A stretch of DNA of 48,249 bases, from assembly GCA_913061095.1 (NCBI GenBank), contig CAJXVM010000028.1:1-48249 (forward strand), read 5' to 3'. The notes beneath the pieces are model-generated. The model made no database searches, was not told the origin of the DNA, and saw only the letters and a program-made list of their open reading frames with translations. The stretch comes from an uncultured Ignavibacteria bacterium (GTDB lineage: Bacteria; Bacteroidota; Ignavibacteria; SZUA-365). The translations under genes and the position numbers were made by a program. Below are positions 3,039 through 15,502 of this stretch, in pieces; position 1 is the first letter of the stretch; each line of letters begins with the position of its first letter.

Positions 3039-4256
3039 TCACCGCAGAAGCAGCATTTTCCGACACATCACCGATTCGCCTGAGACAGCGCGAATGAAAT
3101 ACAGGCCGGACTTGAGTCCAGCCGCATCGAGCCGGAACACGTGTCGGCCGGCGGCTCTGTACCCATCTGCCATTCTTGCGACTTCTCTTCCCCAGAGATC
3201 GTGCACGGTAATCCTCAGCGAACCAGGCGCATCGAGATTGACGCTCAGTGTGGCAGTCGTGGTAACAGGATGCGGAGAAATCGGGTCGAGAGTGAACGCT
3301 GCAGGTGTCTCAACGCGTCCTGCTGACGTCGTGGACACGAGCCGCATTGTATCTCTGTAATGAGATGTCATCCCATCCGAACGATACCCCAGACGAAAAA
3401 TGCCGAAATCCCGTTTGAGGGAGGCGCCAGCACCGTAATCTATGGGGCTCCCAGTGATCCAATAACCAATCCAGATAGTCTCGCGGCCTGATGAAGTCCA
3501 GAGACTGTCAGAAGAAATGAAGCGTTCACCAGAGTACTTGAAAAGATCCCTTCCGGCGTCCCCCACAATAGATACAGAACGTCCGTCCCCATTCCACCAT
3601 GGTGCGAAAAACAGGGATAAGCGCCCCCACCCCCAGTAACCGCCGCCCTGTAAATCGAGACGTGGAAGACTGTCGTACTTGCATACAATTCGAAAAATGG
3701 AGGTATCATAAATTCCTCCTTCTCCTTCACCGATATACCGGAACGGATAGATATGGACGTGATCAGAATCCTGCACTGCGCTGTGTGCCCGGTAACGTCG
3801 TGTTCGTGTCCATATATGATCATCCATATAATTGTGGCTGTACTCGTACACCAGTTCGATGCGGGGACGAGGGATGAGGTAATCGAGAAGGTCGATCATC
3901 ACATCCGGAAGCGTTGTGACCGTATCTCCCCATTCGATGCGGAGGGTGTGATCGGCCATGAACCGCCGCGCCCTGTACCGGTAGGTCTCCCGGCTGCTGA
4001 CGGAACTGTCGACCATGGACGCCGCCGGGGATCGGACTATTCCGACCGTCTGCCAGACGGAGTCCGCGGCACAGCGCTCAATGGTGACTTGCAGCCAGGG
4101 CGCGATCAGGCTGTCGCTCCATGACACGAGAACCATCGGTGCGCGATCAGTGCTGACATTCTGGACCGCCAGTGCCGGTGCCTGCTGGGCAGCAAGCGGT
4201 AAGGCCAGGCCGGATGCGCAAATGATGAAGATGATTGCCAGACGTGAGAAAGCCAT
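3039..4256 (-). CDS. T9SS-exported protein of unknown function
   Basis: 405 residues with a signal peptide (MAFSRLAIIFIICASGLALP, cleavage near LAAQQ). The start at 4256 has GGAAGG 4 nt upstream. An N-terminal segment (about 25-110, TDRAPMVLVSWSD to SSRETYRYRARR) resembles a fibronectin-III-like beta-sandwich. The middle is rich in Tyr, Trp and Asp and matches nothing I know. The last ~80 residues are a T9SS type A sorting domain (begins near ISPHPVTTTATLS, ends CRKMLLLR). It is divergent from 4419-6572, with a 162-nt shared upstream region. It is predicted to be on the cell surface or released; the role is unknown. Confidence 0.8.
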   Translation of the reverse strand: MAFSRLAIIFIICASGLALPLAAQQAPALAVQNVSTDRAPMVLVSWSDSLIAPWLQVTIERCAADSVWQTVGIVRSPAASMVDSSVSSRETYRYRARRFMADHTLRIEWGDTVTTLPDVMIDLLDYLIPRPRIELVYEYSHNYMDDHIWTRTRRYRAHSAVQDSDHVHIYPFRYIGEGEGGIYDTSIFRIVCKYDSLPRLDLQGGGYWGWGRLSLFFAPWWNGDGRSVSIVGDAGRDLFKYSGERFISSDSLWTSSGRETIWIGYWITGSPIDYGAGASLKRDFGIFRLGYRSDGMTSHYRDTMRLVSTTSAGRVETPAAFTLDPISPHPVTTTATLSVNLDAPGSLRITVHDLWGREVARMADGYRAAGRHVFRLDAAGLKSGLYFIRAVSGESVMCRKMLLLR

Positions 4257-4418
4257 GCATCCTTCCCCGTATAATTCAGCGATGTCGTGTACAGGATAAC
4301 CTCGTCATTTATCGATGCGAAGTCAAGTACATTGCAGGGACCGCCGATCTGCTCGCATCCACACACTCCAGATTGTAACATTCCTCTGCTCATGGTGTTC
4401 TATACGTGGAGTATCATC

Positions 4419-6572
4419 ATGATTCGATTTTGTTACGCGATCTGTGCGCTATTACTCTCCCATTGTGATCTGTTCGCGCAAGTGACTTGGGAGAAAGTAT
4501 ACCCGGTACCAGATGCTCACGAAAAATGTGCGGTGGCGTCACCTCTTGCCGGTCAATTCATTGTCGTAGGTGCAGAAGGACGCATCTGGAGGAGTATCGA
4601 TGATGGTGTACAGTGGAGCACCATGCCATCACCGGCAGCAGCCAAACTGAACGATATCATTTTTTCAACAACATCTACGGGCTGTATTGTCGGTGAGGGA
4701 GGAGTCATTCTTCGAACAGAGGATGCAGGTGAAACATGGGAGCTTGTTCCCAGCACGATCTCGGCAAACTGGTCTGCTGTCACTGCTGCGGATTCGAACA
4801 CCTTCATTGCAGTAGGATCAGGGGGAAACATCGTTCGCTCGGAGGATGGAGGGCGCAGCTGGAGCAGCGTGGCTGCGCTGGGTGAGGTCGCAATAACAGA
4901 TATCGCGTTCGCGACCGAAACCCTGGGGGCAGCGGTGGGAGATGATGGTTTGTTTGCCGTGACGACGGATGGGGGACGCAGCTGGACCACACAGTCTTTT
5001 TCCCATCTGACGTATGGAGATCTGCGCGTTGTTGAAGCACTGGATGATTCGACGATGGTGGTGTGTTCCCTGATCGACTACTGTGCGATTGCATTGCATC
5101 CGGACAACGCGCAGGTCCATGATTTGCTCTGGTACGAACCTGCATACGACACCTACTATCAGAAGAGCGCGAGGAGTGTTGATGGCAGCGTCTGGCTTGT
5201 GGGATACTGGATGGCCTGGTGCCAGACGCCCCCGACACCCCGGCATGGGAATCTCATCGAATGCACGCCACAGGAGCATCCGAAGCGCGCGATGACATTC
5301 GGACTCGGTCCCGGGAATGTCTTCTGTCCTTCTCTTCGGGATGCCGCGGTTTCTGATGAAGGGACCTGCGTCGCGGTCGCTGAGGACGGAATCATTCTTC
5401 GGGGTGATACCAGCTGGTCGAGCTGGACGACCAGTAATCCCGCCACTGCCGATCTTCACGGCCTGGCAATCGATGGTGACGGAATCATCCACGCTTACGG
5501 AACTTCTGCGGTAAGTCTGGCCTCCTTCGATGGCGGCACAACCTGGTCACAGTCCACGGACAGCTGGGTCGAGACGCTGACCTTCGCGGGGAGGACAGCC
5601 GGACTGAAGCTCTCCAACTACATCGGCGCGTATAACTGGCATCTCTCCCGCACACCCGACGGTGGGAACAGCTGGCTCCCTGCGTTCAAGGGAGGCGCAC
5701 CTCGTTTCCTGGCCGCGGATATCCACCATTCCGGTTTCTGCCTCGCCATAGATGCAAATCTGAACCTGTTCAAATCCACCAACAGCGGGGAGACCTGGTT
5801 CGAATGTCCATCGATAGCCAGCCTGCCTTACATCGAGGCATCCATTGTCATCGCGGACGAACAGCGTGCCTATGTTATCTTGGATCGTCGCGAAATCCTC
5901 GAAACGACGGATCAGGGACGCACCTGGACGGAATCCCGCGCACCGATAACCGGACCACGGAAGTGTTCTTTTCTGGATTCGGGAATTGGTGTGGCTGAAG
6001 AGCATGGGCTCTGGCTTACGCGCAATGCCGGGGTTACGTGGCAGCGTGTGGGATCCGTCCCTTTTTCGGTACGTGGGATTCACCTGTATGACTCCCTCCG
6101 CATCCTCATTGTCGGCGACGATGGAAGTGCCGCATTGAGCACGGACGTCGGCAGTTCGTGGGAAACAAGCGCGTCGATCACGACGAATGATCTTTTTGCA
6201 TGCCGAATCCTCGATGAATCACATTGTGTCGCGGTTGGGGTAAACGGGACCGTCCTTTATGGGACTGTCTCGTCGCCGACATCAATTGGAAACGCTCAGG
6301 ATCGGACGATGGATTACAGGCTGCATCAAAACTTCCCGAACCCCTTCAACCCCTCGACAACCATCGAGTTCAGCCTCCCGAACCGCGGCAATGTTCGGCT
6401 CGCTGTCTTGGATCATCTGGGACGAGAAATTGCAGTACTCACAGAACGTGAGTATCTGGCTGGGACACACTCATGCCAGTTCAGCGGCGCGGAGCTGCCG
6501 TCTGGCGTGTACATGTATCGTCTCAGCTGGAACGGCAATACCGTGACGCGCAGGATGATTCTGCTGCGATAG
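4419..6572 (+). CDS. T9SS-exported Ycf48-like/BNR repeat protein
   Basis: 717 residues from the ATG at 4419 (GGAG 8 nt upstream, signal peptide MIRFCYAICALLLSHCDLFAQ). The frame is open further upstream but without these signals. The body has many SxDxGxxW-type repeats (SIDDGVQWS, TEDAGETWE, SEDGGRSWS, TTDGGRSWT, STNSGETWF, TTDQGRTWT) typical of Ycf48-like/BNR propellers. The tail begins at NFPNPFNPSTTIEF, the classic start of this superphylum's T9SS sorting domain, and ends TRRMILLR. It should be exported to the cell surface; the ligand is unknown. A truncated relative lies at 2699-2914, and both are followed by the same repeat, so this family appears to be duplicated as gene plus 3' flank. 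Confidence 0.9.
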   Translation: MIRFCYAICALLLSHCDLFAQVTWEKVYPVPDAHEKCAVASPLAGQFIVVGAEGRIWRSIDDGVQWSTMPSPAAAKLNDIIFSTTSTGCIVGEGGVILRTEDAGETWELVPSTISANWSAVTAADSNTFIAVGSGGNIVRSEDGGRSWSSVAALGEVAITDIAFATETLGAAVGDDGLFAVTTDGGRSWTTQSFSHLTYGDLRVVEALDDSTMVVCSLIDYCAIALHPDNAQVHDLLWYEPAYDTYYQKSARSVDGSVWLVGYWMAWCQTPPTPRHGNLIECTPQEHPKRAMTFGLGPGNVFCPSLRDAAVSDEGTCVAVAEDGIILRGDTSWSSWTTSNPATADLHGLAIDGDGIIHAYGTSAVSLASFDGGTTWSQSTDSWVETLTFAGRTAGLKLSNYIGAYNWHLSRTPDGGNSWLPAFKGGAPRFLAADIHHSGFCLAIDANLNLFKSTNSGETWFECPSIASLPYIEASIVIADEQRAYVILDRREILETTDQGRTWTESRAPITGPRKCSFLDSGIGVAEEHGLWLTRNAGVTWQRVGSVPFSVRGIHLYDSLRILIVGDDGSAALSTDVGSSWETSASITTNDLFACRILDESHCVAVGVNGTVLYGTVSSPTSIGNAQDRTMDYRLHQNFPNPFNPSTTIEFSLPNRGNVRLAVLDHLGREIAVLTEREYLAGTHSCQFSGAELPSGVYMYRLSWNGNTVTRRMILLR

Positions 6573-6585
6573 CACATCCCTGAAC

Positions 6586-6643
6586 TTGCATGCAACAATG
6601 CAACACTTTCCCGATGCCTGCTGGGCAACCGTGGATGTTTTCT
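6586..6643 (+). repeat. Dispersed 3'-flank repeat, copy C
   Basis: Hairpin TTGCAT (6586-6591), loop GCAACA, ATGCAA (6598-6603), then CACTTTC. Bases 6598-6643 match the window's first 46 bases at 42 positions. It starts 13 nt after the stop codon of the 4419-6572 gene. It is the fullest of the three copies visible here. Confidence 0.65.
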
Positions 6644-7575: not shown

Positions 7576-7717
7576 CGCTCCTCCGCTCCGCGTATTTGTG
7601 ATGTCTTTCTCTGAACATACGGCATACCGGACGAAAAGGAAACAGCCGTCCCCCAGCCTTCCAATGCCGGAGGCATTTTGTATATTTCCCGGAGATTCAT
7701 CCAGATCAGGAATTCAG

Positions 7718-9976
7718 ATGATCATTCGTCGCGTACCGGATTTCACCCTGCTGTGTCTGCTCTGGGGAGTGCTGTTCGCCGGAGAGGCGGCCGCCCAGGA
7801 GCGCGTGGCCCTGCATCTCGAGGAAGGAATGTCCGGCGCAGTGTGGGATCTCGCGGTGGGACCCGACGGCCACACGCTGTACACCTGCGGCCGCGATTCC
7901 ACCGCGAAGTCCTGGGATCTGCGCACCGGCGAAAGCATCCGGATGTTCAAGACCGATCAGCCGACATTGATCACGTCGCTCGCGCTCGATCACACGGGCA
8001 CCTGGCTCGCCCTCGGCGACATGCACGGAACGCTCACGGTCTGGAACGCCCGCAGCGGCGTGCAGTATTACAGCGCTCCCGCGCACGACCGCTACGTGAC
8101 CGCCGTTGCGATGACGCCAGACGGCAGCACGATACTCACCGCGGGACGCGACGGCAGGATCCGGCTCTGGAATACCGACGACGGTCGGCCGATCCGAACA
8201 CTCGAGGCGGGCATGCTGTGGGTGCAGGATGTCAGCGTGTCGCCCGACGGAACGACCATCGCAGCCGCCGGGCAGGACGGCACCGTCCGTCTCTGGCCGC
8301 TCGCGGGAGACGCTCCCGCAACGGAGCTCGGCACGCACAGCCGCTTCGCGCGCACGCTGCTGTTCTCCGGCGATGGACGCTTCCTGTTTTCTTCCGGTGC
8401 GGACGGCCATGTCAAGGTGTGGGATCTCGAGACAATGGCCCTGTATCGCGATATCAAACTGCAGGACGGCTACGCGCACGGACTGGACCTCGACCGCACC
8501 GAGGAGCACCTGCTCGTCAGCAAAATGAACGGCCTGATGGAGATCTGGGACTGGCGCCGCCGCCTCCTGAAACGGAAACTTCCGCCGTCTTCGTATGGTA
8601 CAATGCAGTCGGTGTTCAACGATGCCGGCGACCGCATCTTCAGCGCCCACACCAGCGGTGCGGTCAAAGTCTGGCGAACGGAAGACGGAGCACTGCTTCT
8701 CGATATGGTCGGATTCAGCGACGGACAATGGCTCTCCTTCACTCCGGACGGGTATTACGACTGCTCGGCCTACGGTGACCGCTACGTGCAGTGGCGCCGG
8801 GGACAGGAGCTTTTTCCCCTGGAGCGCTACAGTGAGCTATTCAAACGTCCCGCGATCATCGAAGACGTCCTGCGCGGGGGCTACGACCCCGGCGACGGCA
8901 TCGAGCGCATCATCGATCCTCCCACCGCGACGATCCTTGCTCCCCGCGACGCCCAGCTGTTCGCCTTCGGCAGCGAGCCGCTTGAAATCATCGTCGAGGC
9001 CGAGGGGCGCGACAGCGAACGCATCGAGCGGCTCGCCGTCAAGCTCAACGGAAGGCAGCTCTCTTCCGTGCAGATTCTCGATCAGCGTATCATCCGGCGC
9101 AGCGACAGCCTGCTGCGCATGCGATGGCGTATCCCGGTGCTGCCGGGCCGCAACGCAGTCGAAGTCGTGGCTGTGAATGCAGCGCGCGTCCGCAGTGAAG
9201 TCCGCCGCGCCGAGATTACCGTGGAAACCGGACGCAGCCTTGACCCGAGTCTCTACGTGCTCGCAGTGGGTGCCGACGACTACGCGCCCGCCTATCCCGA
9301 CCTGGAGTTTGCCGTCGTGGATGCGCAGGCCGTGGCCGACGAATTCATGCGGCAGGAGGGCGGGATGTACACCCGCGTATACACGACAACGCTGACGGAT
9401 CGCGATGCTGCGCGGGAGAACATTTTCCGTGCGCTTCGCGAATTTGGGGAGATGAAGCCGCAGGATGTGCTGCTGCTGTTTTTCAGCGGCCACGGGGTGC
9501 GCGACCGCGACCGCTCGGGAAGGATTCGCTACTATTACCTGCCTGCGGGCGTGACACCGTCCACCCTGTCGACGCGCGCCATGGCCTGGGAAGATTTCTC
9601 CGGCGAGATCCGGCGGCTGAATGCCGGACGCGTCATTCTCCTGCTTGATGCCTGTCACTCGGGGGATGTCTCAAGCGGTGCATCCAACGAAAAAGTGGCG
9701 GCCTCGATGGCGGGCGATGTGGGCATCGTGTTCACGTCCAGTTCCGGCAACGAGTTTTCCTATGAGGACCGCAGCTGGGGACACGGCGCCTTCACCCGCG
9801 CGCTGCTCGATGGACTGCGCGGCAAGGCCGATTTCACCGGCGACGGCATCGTCGACTGGAGCGAACTGCAGCTGTATGTCAGCACGGCCGTGCGCAGCAT
9901 GACGCAGGGCAGCCAGAATCCGATGGTCCCCCGGCTCGAACAATTCGCAAACTTCGAACTCGTGAGAGTGCCATGA
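7718..9976 (+). CDS. Secreted WD40-caspase (peptidase C14) protein
   Basis: 752 residues. The start at 7718 is chosen because a signal peptide follows (FTLLCLLWGVLFAGEAAAQ); upstream codons overlap the divergent gene. Residues about 28-370 form WD40 repeats (SKSWDLRTGE- and RLWNTDDGRP-type blades with the usual GH/WD spacing). A beta-sandwich-like linker follows (about 395-500). A caspase-fold domain spans about 510-752: the catalytic His is in FFSGHG (His592) and Cys in LLLDACHSGD (Cys646), both intact, so it should be an active clan CD protease, probably cutting after basic residues as metacaspases do. The WD40 part likely senses a partner or ligand. The export signal places it in the periplasm or outside. 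It shares ATGA (9973-9976) with the next gene. Confidence 0.9.
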   Translation: MIIRRVPDFTLLCLLWGVLFAGEAAAQERVALHLEEGMSGAVWDLAVGPDGHTLYTCGRDSTAKSWDLRTGESIRMFKTDQPTLITSLALDHTGTWLALGDMHGTLTVWNARSGVQYYSAPAHDRYVTAVAMTPDGSTILTAGRDGRIRLWNTDDGRPIRTLEAGMLWVQDVSVSPDGTTIAAAGQDGTVRLWPLAGDAPATELGTHSRFARTLLFSGDGRFLFSSGADGHVKVWDLETMALYRDIKLQDGYAHGLDLDRTEEHLLVSKMNGLMEIWDWRRRLLKRKLPPSSYGTMQSVFNDAGDRIFSAHTSGAVKVWRTEDGALLLDMVGFSDGQWLSFTPDGYYDCSAYGDRYVQWRRGQELFPLERYSELFKRPAIIEDVLRGGYDPGDGIERIIDPPTATILAPRDAQLFAFGSEPLEIIVEAEGRDSERIERLAVKLNGRQLSSVQILDQRIIRRSDSLLRMRWRIPVLPGRNAVEVVAVNAARVRSEVRRAEITVETGRSLDPSLYVLAVGADDYAPAYPDLEFAVVDAQAVADEFMRQEGGMYTRVYTTTLTDRDAARENIFRALREFGEMKPQDVLLLFFSGHGVRDRDRSGRIRYYYLPAGVTPSTLSTRAMAWEDFSGEIRRLNAGRVILLLDACHSGDVSSGASNEKVAASMAGDVGIVFTSSSGNEFSYEDRSWGHGAFTRALLDGLRGKADFTGDGIVDWSELQLYVSTAVRSMTQGSQNPMVPRLEQFANFELVRVP

Positions 9977-11034
9977 AACGCCATACAATGTTCATCACTG
10001 TTCTGACGATCATGCTCACCGCCGTGCCCGCGGTTGCGCAGGAAGGCGCCGCGACAGACGGGGAGAACAGCCCGGAAGCACAGCAGCCCGATGTCGCGAT
10101 GGTCACCTCCGTTTCCGGCACGGCCACCTGCTTCACCGGCGGAGAGGAACTGCCGCTTGAACTCGGCGTTCGTCTTCGCGAGGGGGACGAAATTGTCGTG
10201 AAGAGCGGACGCGCCGCGCTGGTATTCCTCGCGGGTGACTATCTCGCGCTCAGCGAGGGCGAACGGCTGACACTTGGTCCTTCACTCGAGGAAAGCACGG
10301 TCGAGCAGGGAGGTGGCACGCGCGGTCTCTCCGCCGATGACGGCACGAACGTCGCCGCGGGCGGTGTGGATGCGGGACGCAAGCGTTACCGCTGGCAGTC
10401 CCAACTCGCATCGGTCTCCAGCATCCGTGCCGATGCAGCGGCGATCGCCGTCGCGCCGCGCCTGACCATCTCCGATCCCAATCCCGTCTTCTGCTGGTTC
10501 GACACCGACACGGCATCCGGCGACGCGGAACGAGCCTACACGCTGGTGCTCTATGACGCGGACGGCGCGCGCATTGCGACCCAGCAGGTTCGCGGACGTG
10601 TCGGCGTGCTCAACAGCCACCGTTTCGCCGCTCCCCCGACGGGACTCACCGCATCGCCGCGGACGCATTACTCCTGGACGGTCATCCCGGCGGGAGAGAC
10701 CATACCCGAGGGCAGGCAGGATGCGTCGTTTGTCTATGTCGATGAGGCCGGGCTCGCGGCGGCCGCGGCACACCGGCAGCGCATCGCGCAGCTGCACGAA
10801 AGCGGGCAGGTGGACGACGCATCGATGCACATGCTGCTCAGCCGGTACTTCCTCGATGAACGTGAGCGGCTGTTCGCCGACGCCATCCCGCATCTCATCG
10901 TCCTGCAGTCGCAGCACGGCGGCGGCACGTACGCGCGCGAGCAGCTCGCGGAGATGTTCCTGCGCTTCGGAAATCAGGTGTCCGTTCTCGCCCCCCGCAT
11001 CCTGCAGTCAACGGTGCTGCTCTCCGCTCCATGA
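9973..11034 (+). CDS. Secreted FecR-domain protein
   Basis: 353 residues, signal peptide MFITVLTIMLTAVPAVAQ. Residues about 40-105 match a FecR-type domain: a VSGTA strand, then LREGDEIVVKSGRAALVFLAGDYLALSEGERLTL. Here it is not tied to a TonB receptor or sigma factor. The middle (about 150-260) looks like an Ig-like beta-sandwich (FCWFDTDTASGDAERAYTLV, HYSWTVIPAGETIPEG). The C-terminal ~90 residues are helical (LAAAAAHRQRIAQLHESGQV) and resemble TPR helices. It starts inside the stop of the caspase gene and ends overlapping the CHAT gene by 4 nt, so the three are translationally coupled. It may scaffold or control the two proteases; that is inference. Confidence 0.8.
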   Translation: MKRHTMFITVLTIMLTAVPAVAQEGAATDGENSPEAQQPDVAMVTSVSGTATCFTGGEELPLELGVRLREGDEIVVKSGRAALVFLAGDYLALSEGERLTLGPSLEESTVEQGGGTRGLSADDGTNVAAGGVDAGRKRYRWQSQLASVSSIRADAAAIAVAPRLTISDPNPVFCWFDTDTASGDAERAYTLVLYDADGARIATQQVRGRVGVLNSHRFAAPPTGLTASPRTHYSWTVIPAGETIPEGRQDASFVYVDEAGLAAAAAHRQRIAQLHESGQVDDASMHMLLSRYFLDERERLFADAIPHLIVLQSQHGGGTYAREQLAEMFLRFGNQVSVLAPRILQSTVLLSAP

Positions 11035-13445
11035 GAACGCTTCTGCTTCTGCTTTGCGTGACGTTTGCGGCAGGGCTGCTTTCCTGCAGCGGCGGGAAGG
11101 AGTTCGCCGCGGAGGACCCGCGCATCCGCGAGGGCCGGCTGTATTATGCGCGTTCGGAATTCGACCGCGCGCAGAGACATTTCCGCGATGTGCTTTACGA
11201 GGCGCTGGCCAGCGGCGACCGCCTCGTGGCGGCGCAGGCGCAGAAGTGGCTCGGCAGCATCTTCCTCGCCTACGAGCAGCCCGGTGAGGCGGTCGTCTGG
11301 TACGAGGAAAGCCTCGCTCTCCTCAGCCAGGGGCTGGACGAAGCGGCGGTGACGGACCGGCAGACGCAGCAGCTCTGGCTGGATGAACGGCACAACGTGC
11401 TCAGCAACATCGCCGTCGTGCACAGGAATCTCGGAGCCTATGACCGGGCGGATTCGCTGTTCCGCGTCGTGCTGCATTATGACAGCCTGCAACGGGATGA
11501 TCTCGGGATCGCGCTCTCACTCAACAACCTCGGGGATCTGTACAATCAGCGTGCCGCGGCGGCGGATGAGGATTACGACTCCACCGCGTTCCGCAAGTAT
11601 CATTCCATGGCGCGCCGGTACCTCGGGAATGCGCTGTCCGCCTCCCCGATCCCTGATGCCTGGCTGAACCTCGGAAACAACTTCGCCAACGTGAGTGATC
11701 TCGACAGCGCAATCGTCTGCTACCGCCAGGCGGAGGAGATCTACCGGCGGGACGGCAATCCCGTGCAGCGGGCGCTGGCGCTTGGCAACATCGGCGTGCT
11801 GGCGCGGAAACTCGGCCGGCTCGACGAAGCCGCCGGGGCGCTGCGCGCGAGCATCGCCATTGTCGAGGAACTGCGCGGCAGCATCTCATCGATCGACATC
11901 CGCAGCAGTTTCATTTCCGATAAATACTACATATACGAGAATCTCATCGACATCCTCGTCGAGGCAGACAGCGTGCACGCGGCCTTCGAATTCGTCGAGC
12001 GCGCGAAGGCACGTTCTTTCCTCGACATGATCGGCAGCAAATCCGTCGGCGAAGGCAAACAGCGGCCGCCGGAGGTGCAGGCGTTGGTCGACAGGGAACA
12101 GGCGCTGCAGCGCCGGATGGGTCGGCTGCTGACGCAGCCCGACAGCAGCAGGCGGCTGGTCGAAGTGATCGAGCAGCACAAGCAGGTGCTGGCGACGCTG
12201 CGGGAAAAGGATCCGGAATATGCATCAGTGAAGAGCATAGATCCGATTCCCGCCGCCGAGCTGCAGCGCATGCTCGATGACAGCACGGCCCTGGTGGAGT
12301 ATTTCATTGGCCGGGAGGCGGGGTATGCATTCCTGCTCCGTCGGGATACCGTCTTTGTGAAGCCGCTGACGCTGGATCCGCTAATCCCGCTCGAAGTGGA
12401 AATCGAACGGCTGCGGCGGAAACTGTTCTACGATTTTCCAATGCAGAAGGCGCGCGTGATACGCGAGCAGCGGCTCGGTGAGGGCAAGAGCATGGAGGAG
12501 GCCCTCGCCGCCTGGCATGCGATGGTGACGGAGACCGAATGGCAGTTCATACTCGGCGATATGCATGCGCGATTCTTTCGCCCCGTCTCCCGGGCACTTG
12601 AGGGAATTACGCAGCTGTACATCGTCCCGCACGGTCCCCTGCATCATCTGCCGTTCCAGGCGCTGCTTGACTTATGGAACTCGGATCAGCGGAGAGACGT
12701 CCATATCGCGCGTCCGCGGTATCTGATCGAGGAGTATGCCATCGCCTACCTGCCGTCGGCGAGTGTGCTCGGCTTCGCGCTCCGGAAGAATCTCGAGAAG
12801 GCACGCACGGCGCTCATCGTCGGAGATCCGGTCTACGCTGACCCGAAGTACCGGCGGCGTCCGCTCGAAGGCGCGCTGATCGAGGCAGATACCGTCGCCC
12901 GCTACGCCCGCGATCCGCTGGTGCTCAAGCGCGGGGAAGCGGATGAGAAAACGGTACGGCGGAAGATCGGTGAAATGGACCTGCTGCATTTCGCCACGCA
13001 CGGCGAACTGAACAAGAAGGACCCCATGCAGTCGCGCATTCTGCTCGCGTCTGCAGAACCCGACAGCGTGTACGACGGCGACCTGACCGTCGCGAAGATT
13101 TTCAACCTCGATCTGCGGGCGATGCTGGTGACGCTCAGTGCCTGCCAGACCGCTCAGGTTGCCGGTGAGGAGGGGGAATTCACGCCGGGTGACGAACTGG
13201 TTGGACTCACGCGCTCCTTCATGTATGCCGGGTCTCCTGCCGTGATCGCCTCGCTGTGGTACGTCGACGATGCCGCGACACTGGCCTGGATGCGCCATTT
13301 CTACCGCTCGTGGCTGGAGAATGGGCAGAGCCGCATGCAGGCGGCGCGCAGCGCGGCACTGCACATGCTCGAGCAGCCCGGCGATCCCGACTGGATTTTT
13401 CCGTATTACTGGGCGGCGTTCGTCTACATGGGCGACAGCCGCTGA
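11031..13445 (+). CDS. TPR-CHAT lipoprotein
   Basis: 804 residues. A lipoprotein signal (LLLLLCVTFAAGLLSC, lipidated Cys19) tethers it to a membrane facing the periplasm. Residues about 30-330 are TPR helices (LYYARSEFDRAQRHFRDVL; LNNLGDLYNQRAAA; LGNIGVLARKLGRLDEAAG). A helical linker (about 330-450) leads to a CHAT domain (about 470-804), a caspase/separase-like protease fold. The catalytic pair is intact: His657 in LLHFATHGEL and Cys705 in VTLSACQTAQ. TPR-CHAT proteins are known as proteases, for example in type III-E CRISPR (Craspase) and gasdermin-linked defence, but those act in the cytoplasm; this one is exported. It overlaps the FecR gene by ATGA. Confidence 0.9.
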   Translation: MRTLLLLLCVTFAAGLLSCSGGKEFAAEDPRIREGRLYYARSEFDRAQRHFRDVLYEALASGDRLVAAQAQKWLGSIFLAYEQPGEAVVWYEESLALLSQGLDEAAVTDRQTQQLWLDERHNVLSNIAVVHRNLGAYDRADSLFRVVLHYDSLQRDDLGIALSLNNLGDLYNQRAAAADEDYDSTAFRKYHSMARRYLGNALSASPIPDAWLNLGNNFANVSDLDSAIVCYRQAEEIYRRDGNPVQRALALGNIGVLARKLGRLDEAAGALRASIAIVEELRGSISSIDIRSSFISDKYYIYENLIDILVEADSVHAAFEFVERAKARSFLDMIGSKSVGEGKQRPPEVQALVDREQALQRRMGRLLTQPDSSRRLVEVIEQHKQVLATLREKDPEYASVKSIDPIPAAELQRMLDDSTALVEYFIGREAGYAFLLRRDTVFVKPLTLDPLIPLEVEIERLRRKLFYDFPMQKARVIREQRLGEGKSMEEALAAWHAMVTETEWQFILGDMHARFFRPVSRALEGITQLYIVPHGPLHHLPFQALLDLWNSDQRRDVHIARPRYLIEEYAIAYLPSASVLGFALRKNLEKARTALIVGDPVYADPKYRRRPLEGALIEADTVARYARDPLVLKRGEADEKTVRRKIGEMDLLHFATHGELNKKDPMQSRILLASAEPDSVYDGDLTVAKIFNLDLRAMLVTLSACQTAQVAGEEGEFTPGDELVGLTRSFMYAGSPAVIASLWYVDDAATLAWMRHFYRSWLENGQSRMQAARSAALHMLEQPGDPDWIFPYYWAAFVYMGDSR

Positions 13446-13547
13446 TGCCAGGTGCCGCCGTATCCCCCCCAAGGGAACCGCTCCTGCGCCGGCAACGTAT
13501 CACAACCCTGAATCATTGCCTCATCACTGCAATCCCGGAGGTGCCGG

Positions 13548-14210
13548 ATGATACGATTCATTCCGATTTTTTTCACCGTCCTGCTCTTCGCCGAAACGGC
13601 GGCCGCGCAGGAAGGCACAACCTCGAAGCTGGGCGAACCGGTGTTTCCCAAACTGGAATACGTCAACCTGAATGTGGAATTCGATTTCGCAACCGACGTC
13701 ATGCGTGGCTTCGGCGCGCGGGTGGACGACGCCCGGCGTGACGCGGATGCCGCGGCAGTGTCGGGACTCGCCGTGCAGCTGCAGTTCGCCGAAACACTCG
13801 CCGGGAAAACCGCCGAGACCGTCAATGCCGTGCAGCTGCTCGCAGAGGCCGCCCGCATCGCGGAGGAGCAGCAGAGCATGCCCGCCGTCGAGGCGGTCGC
13901 ACTAGCGTCCGGACAGATCCCCGACACGGAGGGCATCGTGCAGCGCCTTCGCGAATCCGCGCAGCTGTTCGCGCAGCGCGGGGAGGGCGAATTTCTCGGC
14001 TTCGTGCGGATCGTCAACGGCTGCGATCGCGTTCTCGATATATATGTCGACGGCAAGTACATGGGCTTCCTCTACGACGGCGAGGAGAACGTTTTTTCCA
14101 CCGGAAACGGAACGACGCATACGCGTGTCACTGATGCCTTCGGCAATACCGTCAGCGAAATACTCTACGTGAAGCAGGATGAAACTGTGACATGGACGAT
14201 CGAACCCTGA
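13548..14210 (+). CDS. Secreted PEGA-like protein of the caspase/CHAT cluster
   Basis: 220 residues, signal peptide MIRFIPIFFTVLLFAETAAAQ; GGAGG lies 8 nt before the ATG. Residues about 60-150 are an Ala/Glu-rich helical stretch (LAGKTAETVNAVQLLAEAAR). The C-terminal ~70 residues (GFVRIVNGCDRVLDIYVDGKY to TVTWTIEP) look like a PEGA-type beta-sandwich, a domain found in surface and periplasmic proteins. It begins 102 nt after the CHAT gene on the same strand, and its last 19 nt overlap the start of folC, so it is likely transcribed with both. The function is unknown; it could be a substrate or a partner of the two proteases. Confidence 0.7.
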   Translation: MIRFIPIFFTVLLFAETAAAQEGTTSKLGEPVFPKLEYVNLNVEFDFATDVMRGFGARVDDARRDADAAAVSGLAVQLQFAETLAGKTAETVNAVQLLAEAARIAEEQQSMPAVEAVALASGQIPDTEGIVQRLRESAQLFAQRGEGEFLGFVRIVNGCDRVLDIYVDGKYMGFLYDGEENVFSTGNGTTHTRVTDAFGNTVSEILYVKQDETVTWTIEP

Positions 14211-15502
14211 GCTACGGCGAAAGCATCGACTGGCTGTTCAATCTGCAGTTTTTCGGCGTCAAGCTGGGACTGGAAAACATCCGTGCGCTCGCGGAAGCGT
14301 GGGGGAATCCCGAGCTGCGCTATCCCGTTGTGCACGTGGCGGGGACAAACGGGAAGGGATCGACGGCAAGCTTCATTGCGGCCGCACTGCAGGCGGCCGG
14401 TTATCGCACCGGACTGTACACCTCTCCGCATCTCGTCGATTTCACCGAACGCATCCGCGTTGACGGTGTGCCGATCGCGCCGCAGCGCGTCGCTGAATAT
14501 GCGCAACGTCTGCGGCCCGACGTCGAGCGCCACAACGCCACCTTCTTCGAAGCCACCACCCTCATGGCGTTTCAGTATTTCGCTGAATGCGGCGTGGATG
14601 CCGCCGTCATCGAGACGGGACTCGGCGGACGGCTCGACGCGACCAACATCGTCGAGCCCGCACTCTGCGTCATCACCAGCCTTTCGCTCGACCATCGCGA
14701 ACATCTCGGTGACACCATCGCGGATATCGCACGCGAGAAGGCGGGAATCATCAAGCGGGGTGTGCCGGCGGTTGTCGCTCCCGCCGTGCCGGCGGCCGGG
14801 GATGTCATCACCACGCGCTGCCGTGAGCAGGATGCCCCCCTCGAGATTCTTCCCGCAGGAGGGGAGGTCCACGCCTGGCGCGACCTCAATGCCATGGACT
14901 GCCTTCTTCCCGAATTCCCCGACCCCGTCTGTCTTGGTCTTGTCGGCGGGCATCAGATCGAGAACGCGCGTCTCGCCGTCCGCGCCCTCCGTCAGCTCGG
15001 CAGGACCGGTTTTCCTCGCCTCGATGACGACGCGGTTCGTGAGGGACTCTCTGACGTGCGTCGCCGCAGCGGTCTTCGGGGACGGCTTGAACGGCTGCAG
15101 GAGCACCCGGAGCTGGTCATTGACGTCGGCCACAATCCCGAAGGGATCCGCGTCATGATGGAGACCTGGACCGCGCTGCGCGACCCACGCGAAACGGATT
15201 TCGTGTTCGGGGTATTGAAATCCAAGGACCTTCGCGCTATGTTTTCCGTACTGGCGCATATTCCGATACGAAGCCTGACGCTTGTCGAGGCCGATTCCCA
15301 TGAGGCGCAGTCACTCGACCAGATGCTGGTATCGGCCAGGGAAGCAGGGCTGCCGGCAGTCACCGCATCCAGCGTATCCGACGGCGTGGCTGCATTGCTC
15401 GATGCGAGCGGCGCGGACAGTATACTGCTGTTCGGTTCACATTACGTCGTCGGCAGTTATCTCCGCCAGTGGCATGACAGCCATGATCGGAACAAAAACT
15501 GA
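14192..15502 (+). CDS. folC: Folylpolyglutamate/dihydrofolate synthase
   Basis: 436 residues, a normal length for FolC. It adds glutamate to folates (and usually to dihydropteroate) using ATP, in the cytoplasm. The ATP-binding loop is GTNGKGST (51-58), the folate/Mg loop is ETGLGGRLDATNIV, and VIDVGHNPEG marks the C-terminal domain. The ATG at 14192 lies inside the preceding secreted-protein gene and overlaps it by 19 nt in another frame; no later ATG would keep the N-terminal helix. The gene therefore appears to depend on transcription, and perhaps translation, of the caspase/CHAT cluster. Confidence 0.93.
   Translation: MDDRTLSYGESIDWLFNLQFFGVKLGLENIRALAEAWGNPELRYPVVHVAGTNGKGSTASFIAAALQAAGYRTGLYTSPHLVDFTERIRVDGVPIAPQRVAEYAQRLRPDVERHNATFFEATTLMAFQYFAECGVDAAVIETGLGGRLDATNIVEPALCVITSLSLDHREHLGDTIADIAREKAGIIKRGVPAVVAPAVPAAGDVITTRCREQDAPLEILPAGGEVHAWRDLNAMDCLLPEFPDPVCLGLVGGHQIENARLAVRALRQLGRTGFPRLDDDAVREGLSDVRRRSGLRGRLERLQEHPELVIDVGHNPEGIRVMMETWTALRDPRETDFVFGVLKSKDLRAMFSVLAHIPIRSLTLVEADSHEAQSLDQMLVSAREAGLPAVTASSVSDGVAALLDASGADSILLFGSHYVVGSYLRQWHDSHDRNKN

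Follow-up and report, generated by a model that had tools for sequence, protein, structure and literature searches.

A conserved operon of an exported caspase, an MtxA-like adaptor and a CHAT lipoprotein as a candidate envelope signalling module in Ignavibacteria

Most discussion of bacterial caspase and CHAT proteases treats them as cytoplasmic enzymes of defence or cell death. MtxA is a periplasmic protein with a signal peptide and an Ig plus TPR domain; its gene adjoins that of a CHASE2-adenylate cyclase, and deletion of mtxA gives no visible phenotype under standard conditions (PMC4439547). The operon termed 'BiofilmReg' encodes a LysM-FecR protein and a CHASE2 histidine kinase (PMC5192318). 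Among the prokaryotic caspases (metacaspases and orthocaspases) are WD40- and TPR-containing forms, and a subset of these caspases has been reported to carry an N-terminal helix that is possibly a signal peptide (PMC3501461). Csx29, the protease of Craspase, is a TPR plus CHAT protein with a His-Cys dyad.

We analysed a stretch of 48,249 nucleotides from an uncultured Ignavibacteria bacterium (assembly GCA_913061095.1, contig CAJXVM010000028.1; hereafter the window), which contains an operon, called the cassette below, that resembles each of these systems in part. Like the MtxA-CHASE2 pair, it has an exported adaptor of Ig-like plus TPR fold beside envelope signalling genes, whereas its partners are two exported proteases, without a CHASE2 receptor or a cyclase. 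The 'BiofilmReg' operon is alike in its exported FecR-type protein beside an extracytoplasmic sensor, but it has no protease and belongs to a two-component system, while the cassette adaptor has no PF04773 match. The domain types and the His-Cys dyad of the cassette caspase are those of the WD40- and TPR-containing prokaryotic caspases, for which we did not find an operon with an MtxA-like adaptor and a CHAT lipoprotein described. The TPR-CHAT protein has the domains and the dyad of Csx29; unlike Csx29 it is a predicted lipoprotein, the cassette has no CRISPR effector gene, and against the NCBIfam model for type III-E CRISPR Craspase (Csx29) the score is 35.1 bits, with a cut-off of 300. In sister families of the class (L145, L146), an exported WD40-caspase likewise lies in an envelope-sensor operon, followed by DUF4384 and then a CHASE2-guanylate cyclase where the cassette has adaptor and CHAT. 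The parts are known, and the caspase-adaptor-CHAT combination appears to be undescribed; a literature search, with most subscription papers outside its reach, found neither FecR, caspase and CHAT domain together nor CHASE2 and CHAT domain together. The features are as follows:

7656 to 7677, + strand: weak terminator-like hairpin upstream of the operon; such sites are no commoner than chance in the region
7718 to 9976, + strand: P0001, exported WD40 beta-propeller plus caspase (Peptidase C14), 752 aa, H592/C646
9973 to 11034, + strand: P0002, exported adaptor, 353 aa, two domains
10318 to 10326, + strand: codons of T116-R117-G118, a hypothetical P1-Arg site, invariant in cassette-linked orthologs
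11031 to 13445, + strand: P0003, TPR-CHAT lipoprotein, 804 aa, lipobox LLSC (Cys19), H657/C705
13548 to 14210, + strand: P0004, exported protein, 220 aa, link to the trio uncertain
14192 to 15502, + strand: folC-like gene of the Mur ligase family, a conserved downstream neighbour not thought to be part of the module

The ORF coordinates bear out the original prediction that P0001, P0002 and P0003 are joined by 4-nt ATGA overlaps, and both dyads, H592/C646 and H657/C705, are found where it had placed them. Its claim of secreted and lipoprotein N-termini is also sustained, in that export-type signals, read by eye as motifs and not with a trained predictor, are present in all four proteins, with Sec-type AxA sites in P0001 (AAA/QER), P0002 (AVA/QEG) and P0004 (AAA/QEG). 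Cytoplasmic proteins had been set beforehand as the outcome that would speak against the idea; export-like N-termini were found throughout. Full-length orthologs carry export signals as well, and hydropathy windows gave no further hydrophobic segment near transmembrane-helix level in P0001-P0004. Upstream of the cassette, at 4287-6572 on the + strand, lies a gene for a secreted BNR/YCF48-like protein with a C-terminal sorting tail (Por_Secre_tail).

P0001 belongs to Peptidase C14: next to WD40 repeats, it matches PF00656 above the curated cut-off (E 3.4e-16, 60.1 bits against 21.4) and has the His-Cys dyad, which is invariant in 13 sequences, these being all orthologs that reach that region. 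It scored 90.4 bits against the EACC1-associated caspase model (NF047832), whose cut-off is 140, and the sole match of its caspase domain among PDB sequences was metacaspase-4 (E 0.0074). From family knowledge, we infer that P0001 is a soluble periplasmic caspase and that its propeller binds partners, and the acidic Asp644 within the DACHSG motif suggests a specificity for Arg/Lys as in metacaspases and orthocaspases. A second exported caspase is encoded elsewhere in the window's own genome (L153, positions 4978-6624, on contig C18 of G000), where its neighbours are ORFs of 167 aa and 1827 aa, the longer of which matches FlgD_ig weakly. P0003 is a CHAT protein by its profile match (TPR plus CHAT, PF12770; E 2e-62, 211.7 bits against a cut-off of 24) and by its dyad. 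This dyad and the lipobox Cys are both invariant in 15 sequences; from the latter, P0003 is a predicted bacterial lipoprotein that would be membrane-anchored, and the Ser at +2 makes the outer membrane the probable site. The PDB matches listed for the CHAT profile are to TPR and are uninformative for CHAT.

The adaptor P0002 is recognisable by fold. A Pfam search gave nothing useful, and the adaptor profile had no significant match among PDB sequences. In the AlphaFold2 model (pLDDT 77.9), residues 38-131 align to 5ix9, a cell-surface anchoring domain, namely an RTX-adhesin retention domain (Z 9.8, 73/76 residues, rmsd 2.7), and residues 155-346 align to 4z29, the MtxA C-terminal domain (Z 10.1, 158 residues, rmsd 4.6); the structure matches after these have a Z of only about 5. 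The residues aligned to 5ix9 also match the LapA retention module weakly in sequence (E 0.023). The model thus assigns residues 38-131 to the RTX-adhesin retention (RI) or FecR-like beta domains, in fold but not in function, and residues 155-346 to MtxA-like Ig/TPR domains, a likeness of fold and not of sequence. As for the FecR domain predicted originally, the label is lost, with PF04773 matched by 0/13 orthologs (E 0.1), while the fold stands as one of the related retention/FecR-like kind; instead of FecR scaffold, MtxA-like adaptor is the better name. The residues T116-R117-G118 are invariant in 13/13 cassette-linked adaptors of the alignment amid an otherwise variable stretch, and as TRG they are absent from six adaptor relatives outside the cassette (TRS in G371), six being few. 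R117 is a hypothetical cleavage site: Arg at P1 would suit a metacaspase-type protease, but in the model it falls in a short strand. In the class genomes G371 and G256, the P0002 relatives had no caspase or CHAT match alongside.

Relatives of the cassette parts occur beside CHASE2 genes and beside each other. In the window's own genome, a CHASE2 gene overlaps an MtxA-like adaptor relative (L154, positions 3430-6377, contig C21 of G000), and a CHASE2 gene adjoins an MtxA-like relative in the same way in G001 (L056); the genome's one CHASE2 is that on contig C21, and no CHASE2 receptor lies beside the cassette. Caspase and CHASE2 matches are close together in G016 and G031 and about 4.5 kb apart in G021, and an adaptor-like gene occurs with CHAT at L141. 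A caspase lies beside a TPR-CHAT gene, both with export-like N-termini, in another Bacteroidota genome (L147, with a 4-nt overlap) and at the cyanobacterial loci L096 and L082, the latter having two ORFs in between, and such neighbours in separate lineages support a functional link between both protease types. Within the phylum, caspase and CHAT are adjacent only in G313 besides the window's own genome (among the matches listed, by eye), and in a CHAT-profile scan of genome contigs most relatives outside the order had no caspase neighbour with the profiles used here. The named relatives come almost entirely from metagenomes.

The best reading, by analogy with the MtxA-CHASE2 pair, is that the two clan-CD proteases take the place of the CHASE2 receptor as partners of the adaptor, and that the cassette may be an envelope (periplasm/outer-membrane) signalling module, to which we give a probability of roughly 0.55. 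That its parts are exported and work together is likely. A periplasmic or surface protease relay, or stress or cell-contact sensing, had been proposed originally; an envelope sensing/protease module is what stands, supported by export together with intact active sites and protein-binding modules.

Our genome set comprised 61 genomes, 16 of the window's order (three families) and 45 others of the class. CHAT is present in all 16 genomes of the order (full-length in 15, a contig-end fragment in G011), the adaptor and P0004 in 15 each, and the cassette caspase in 14, a count that includes G013, where the caspase adjoins a partial adaptor at one end of a separate contig, C529; no adaptor and no P0004 turned up among the other class genomes sampled (0/45). 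The syntenic block in the order is caspase-adaptor-CHAT-P0004-folC-rho-thiolase. Counting the window, the caspase and adaptor genes overlap by 4 nt in ten genomes and the adaptor and CHAT genes do so in six, and the recurrence of the gene order, usually with these overlaps, argues for an arrangement beyond chance. Loss of the neighbourhood in relatives had also been set as an outcome against the prediction; the genes are kept together across the order. The pN/pS values of 0.20-0.46 across all four genes, which are rough with synonymous sites near saturation, indicate that all four are under purifying selection, and by comparison of the genomes the order conserves the cassette by vertical inheritance.

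This deep vertical conservation beside folC-rho-thiolase would fit separate housekeeping roles too. The caspase and CHAT could process or turn over exported proteins in the envelope, with the adaptor and the WD40/TPR modules picking substrates and no relay involved, and indeed the cassette has no transcription factor, kinase or cyclase. Against this, genes of the adaptor type and for exported WD40-caspases are met again next to CHASE2 sensors, in the same genome and in sister families, which points to signalling, and we place housekeeping on the unlikely side. The genes could also hitch-hike with the folC-rho block without joint function. In G008, P0004 stays with folC-rho and the trio lies about 214 kb away, and in G007, CHAT-P0004 sits at a contig end and neither the adaptor nor the cassette caspase was found, so that CHAT may work alone. 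However, the G008 trio is intact as a unit although it is apart from folC, the 4-nt overlaps are retained, and caspase and CHAT neighbours recur in other lineages, which makes a passive gene order improbable. A toxin, cell-death or anti-phage device, raised originally as an alternative, is very improbable, for although such systems do use caspase and CHAT domains (Craspase, caspase defence) and PADLOC gave weak generic matches, all parts carry export signals, the location is a syntenic core with a distribution within the order that is vertical and not sporadic, there is no immunity gene, the Csx29 score is far under its cut-off, and a caspase profile search found no relatives of P0001 in viral contigs.

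For the envelope signalling module, we propose the following: The adaptor would hold the proteases together or sense the state of the envelope. An envelope cue would change the adaptor, upon which the caspase would be released or activated and would cleave the adaptor or CHAT, the signal thus being passed on by proteolysis. The protease-relay step is a tentative guess. In its most specific form, a periplasmic cascade, the MtxA-like adaptor would gate the exported caspase, with a possible cut at T116-R117-G118, and the caspase would switch on the membrane-anchored CHAT; we regard this form as unlikely. An order-wide operon that exports one caspase, one CHAT and an adaptor of a kind known from beside CHASE2 receptors suggests a function in signalling at the envelope, and it offers a testable three-gene unit with a specific candidate cleavage site. 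MtxA-like proteins would thereby gain a second type of partner besides CHASE2.

P0004 is the least certain part of the cassette, staying with folC in G008, and it is known only from the window's order so far. The earlier description as PEGA-like fails, as PEGA was matched by none of 13 orthologs (E 0.1), and a Pfam search of P0004 gave nothing useful. The protein has a helical N-terminal part and a C-terminal beta-sandwich; a function from the beta-sandwich was considered and dropped, since it aligns at Z 7-9 with many structures that are unrelated to one another (AlgF, VHL). The window's P0004 and folC share 19 nt, an overlap that recurs in the other assemblies worked out (families f1 and f3), except G012. 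In one ortholog (L053, contig C72 of G013), P0004 is split into two ORFs by an in-frame TAA, which could be genuine or stem from the assembly.
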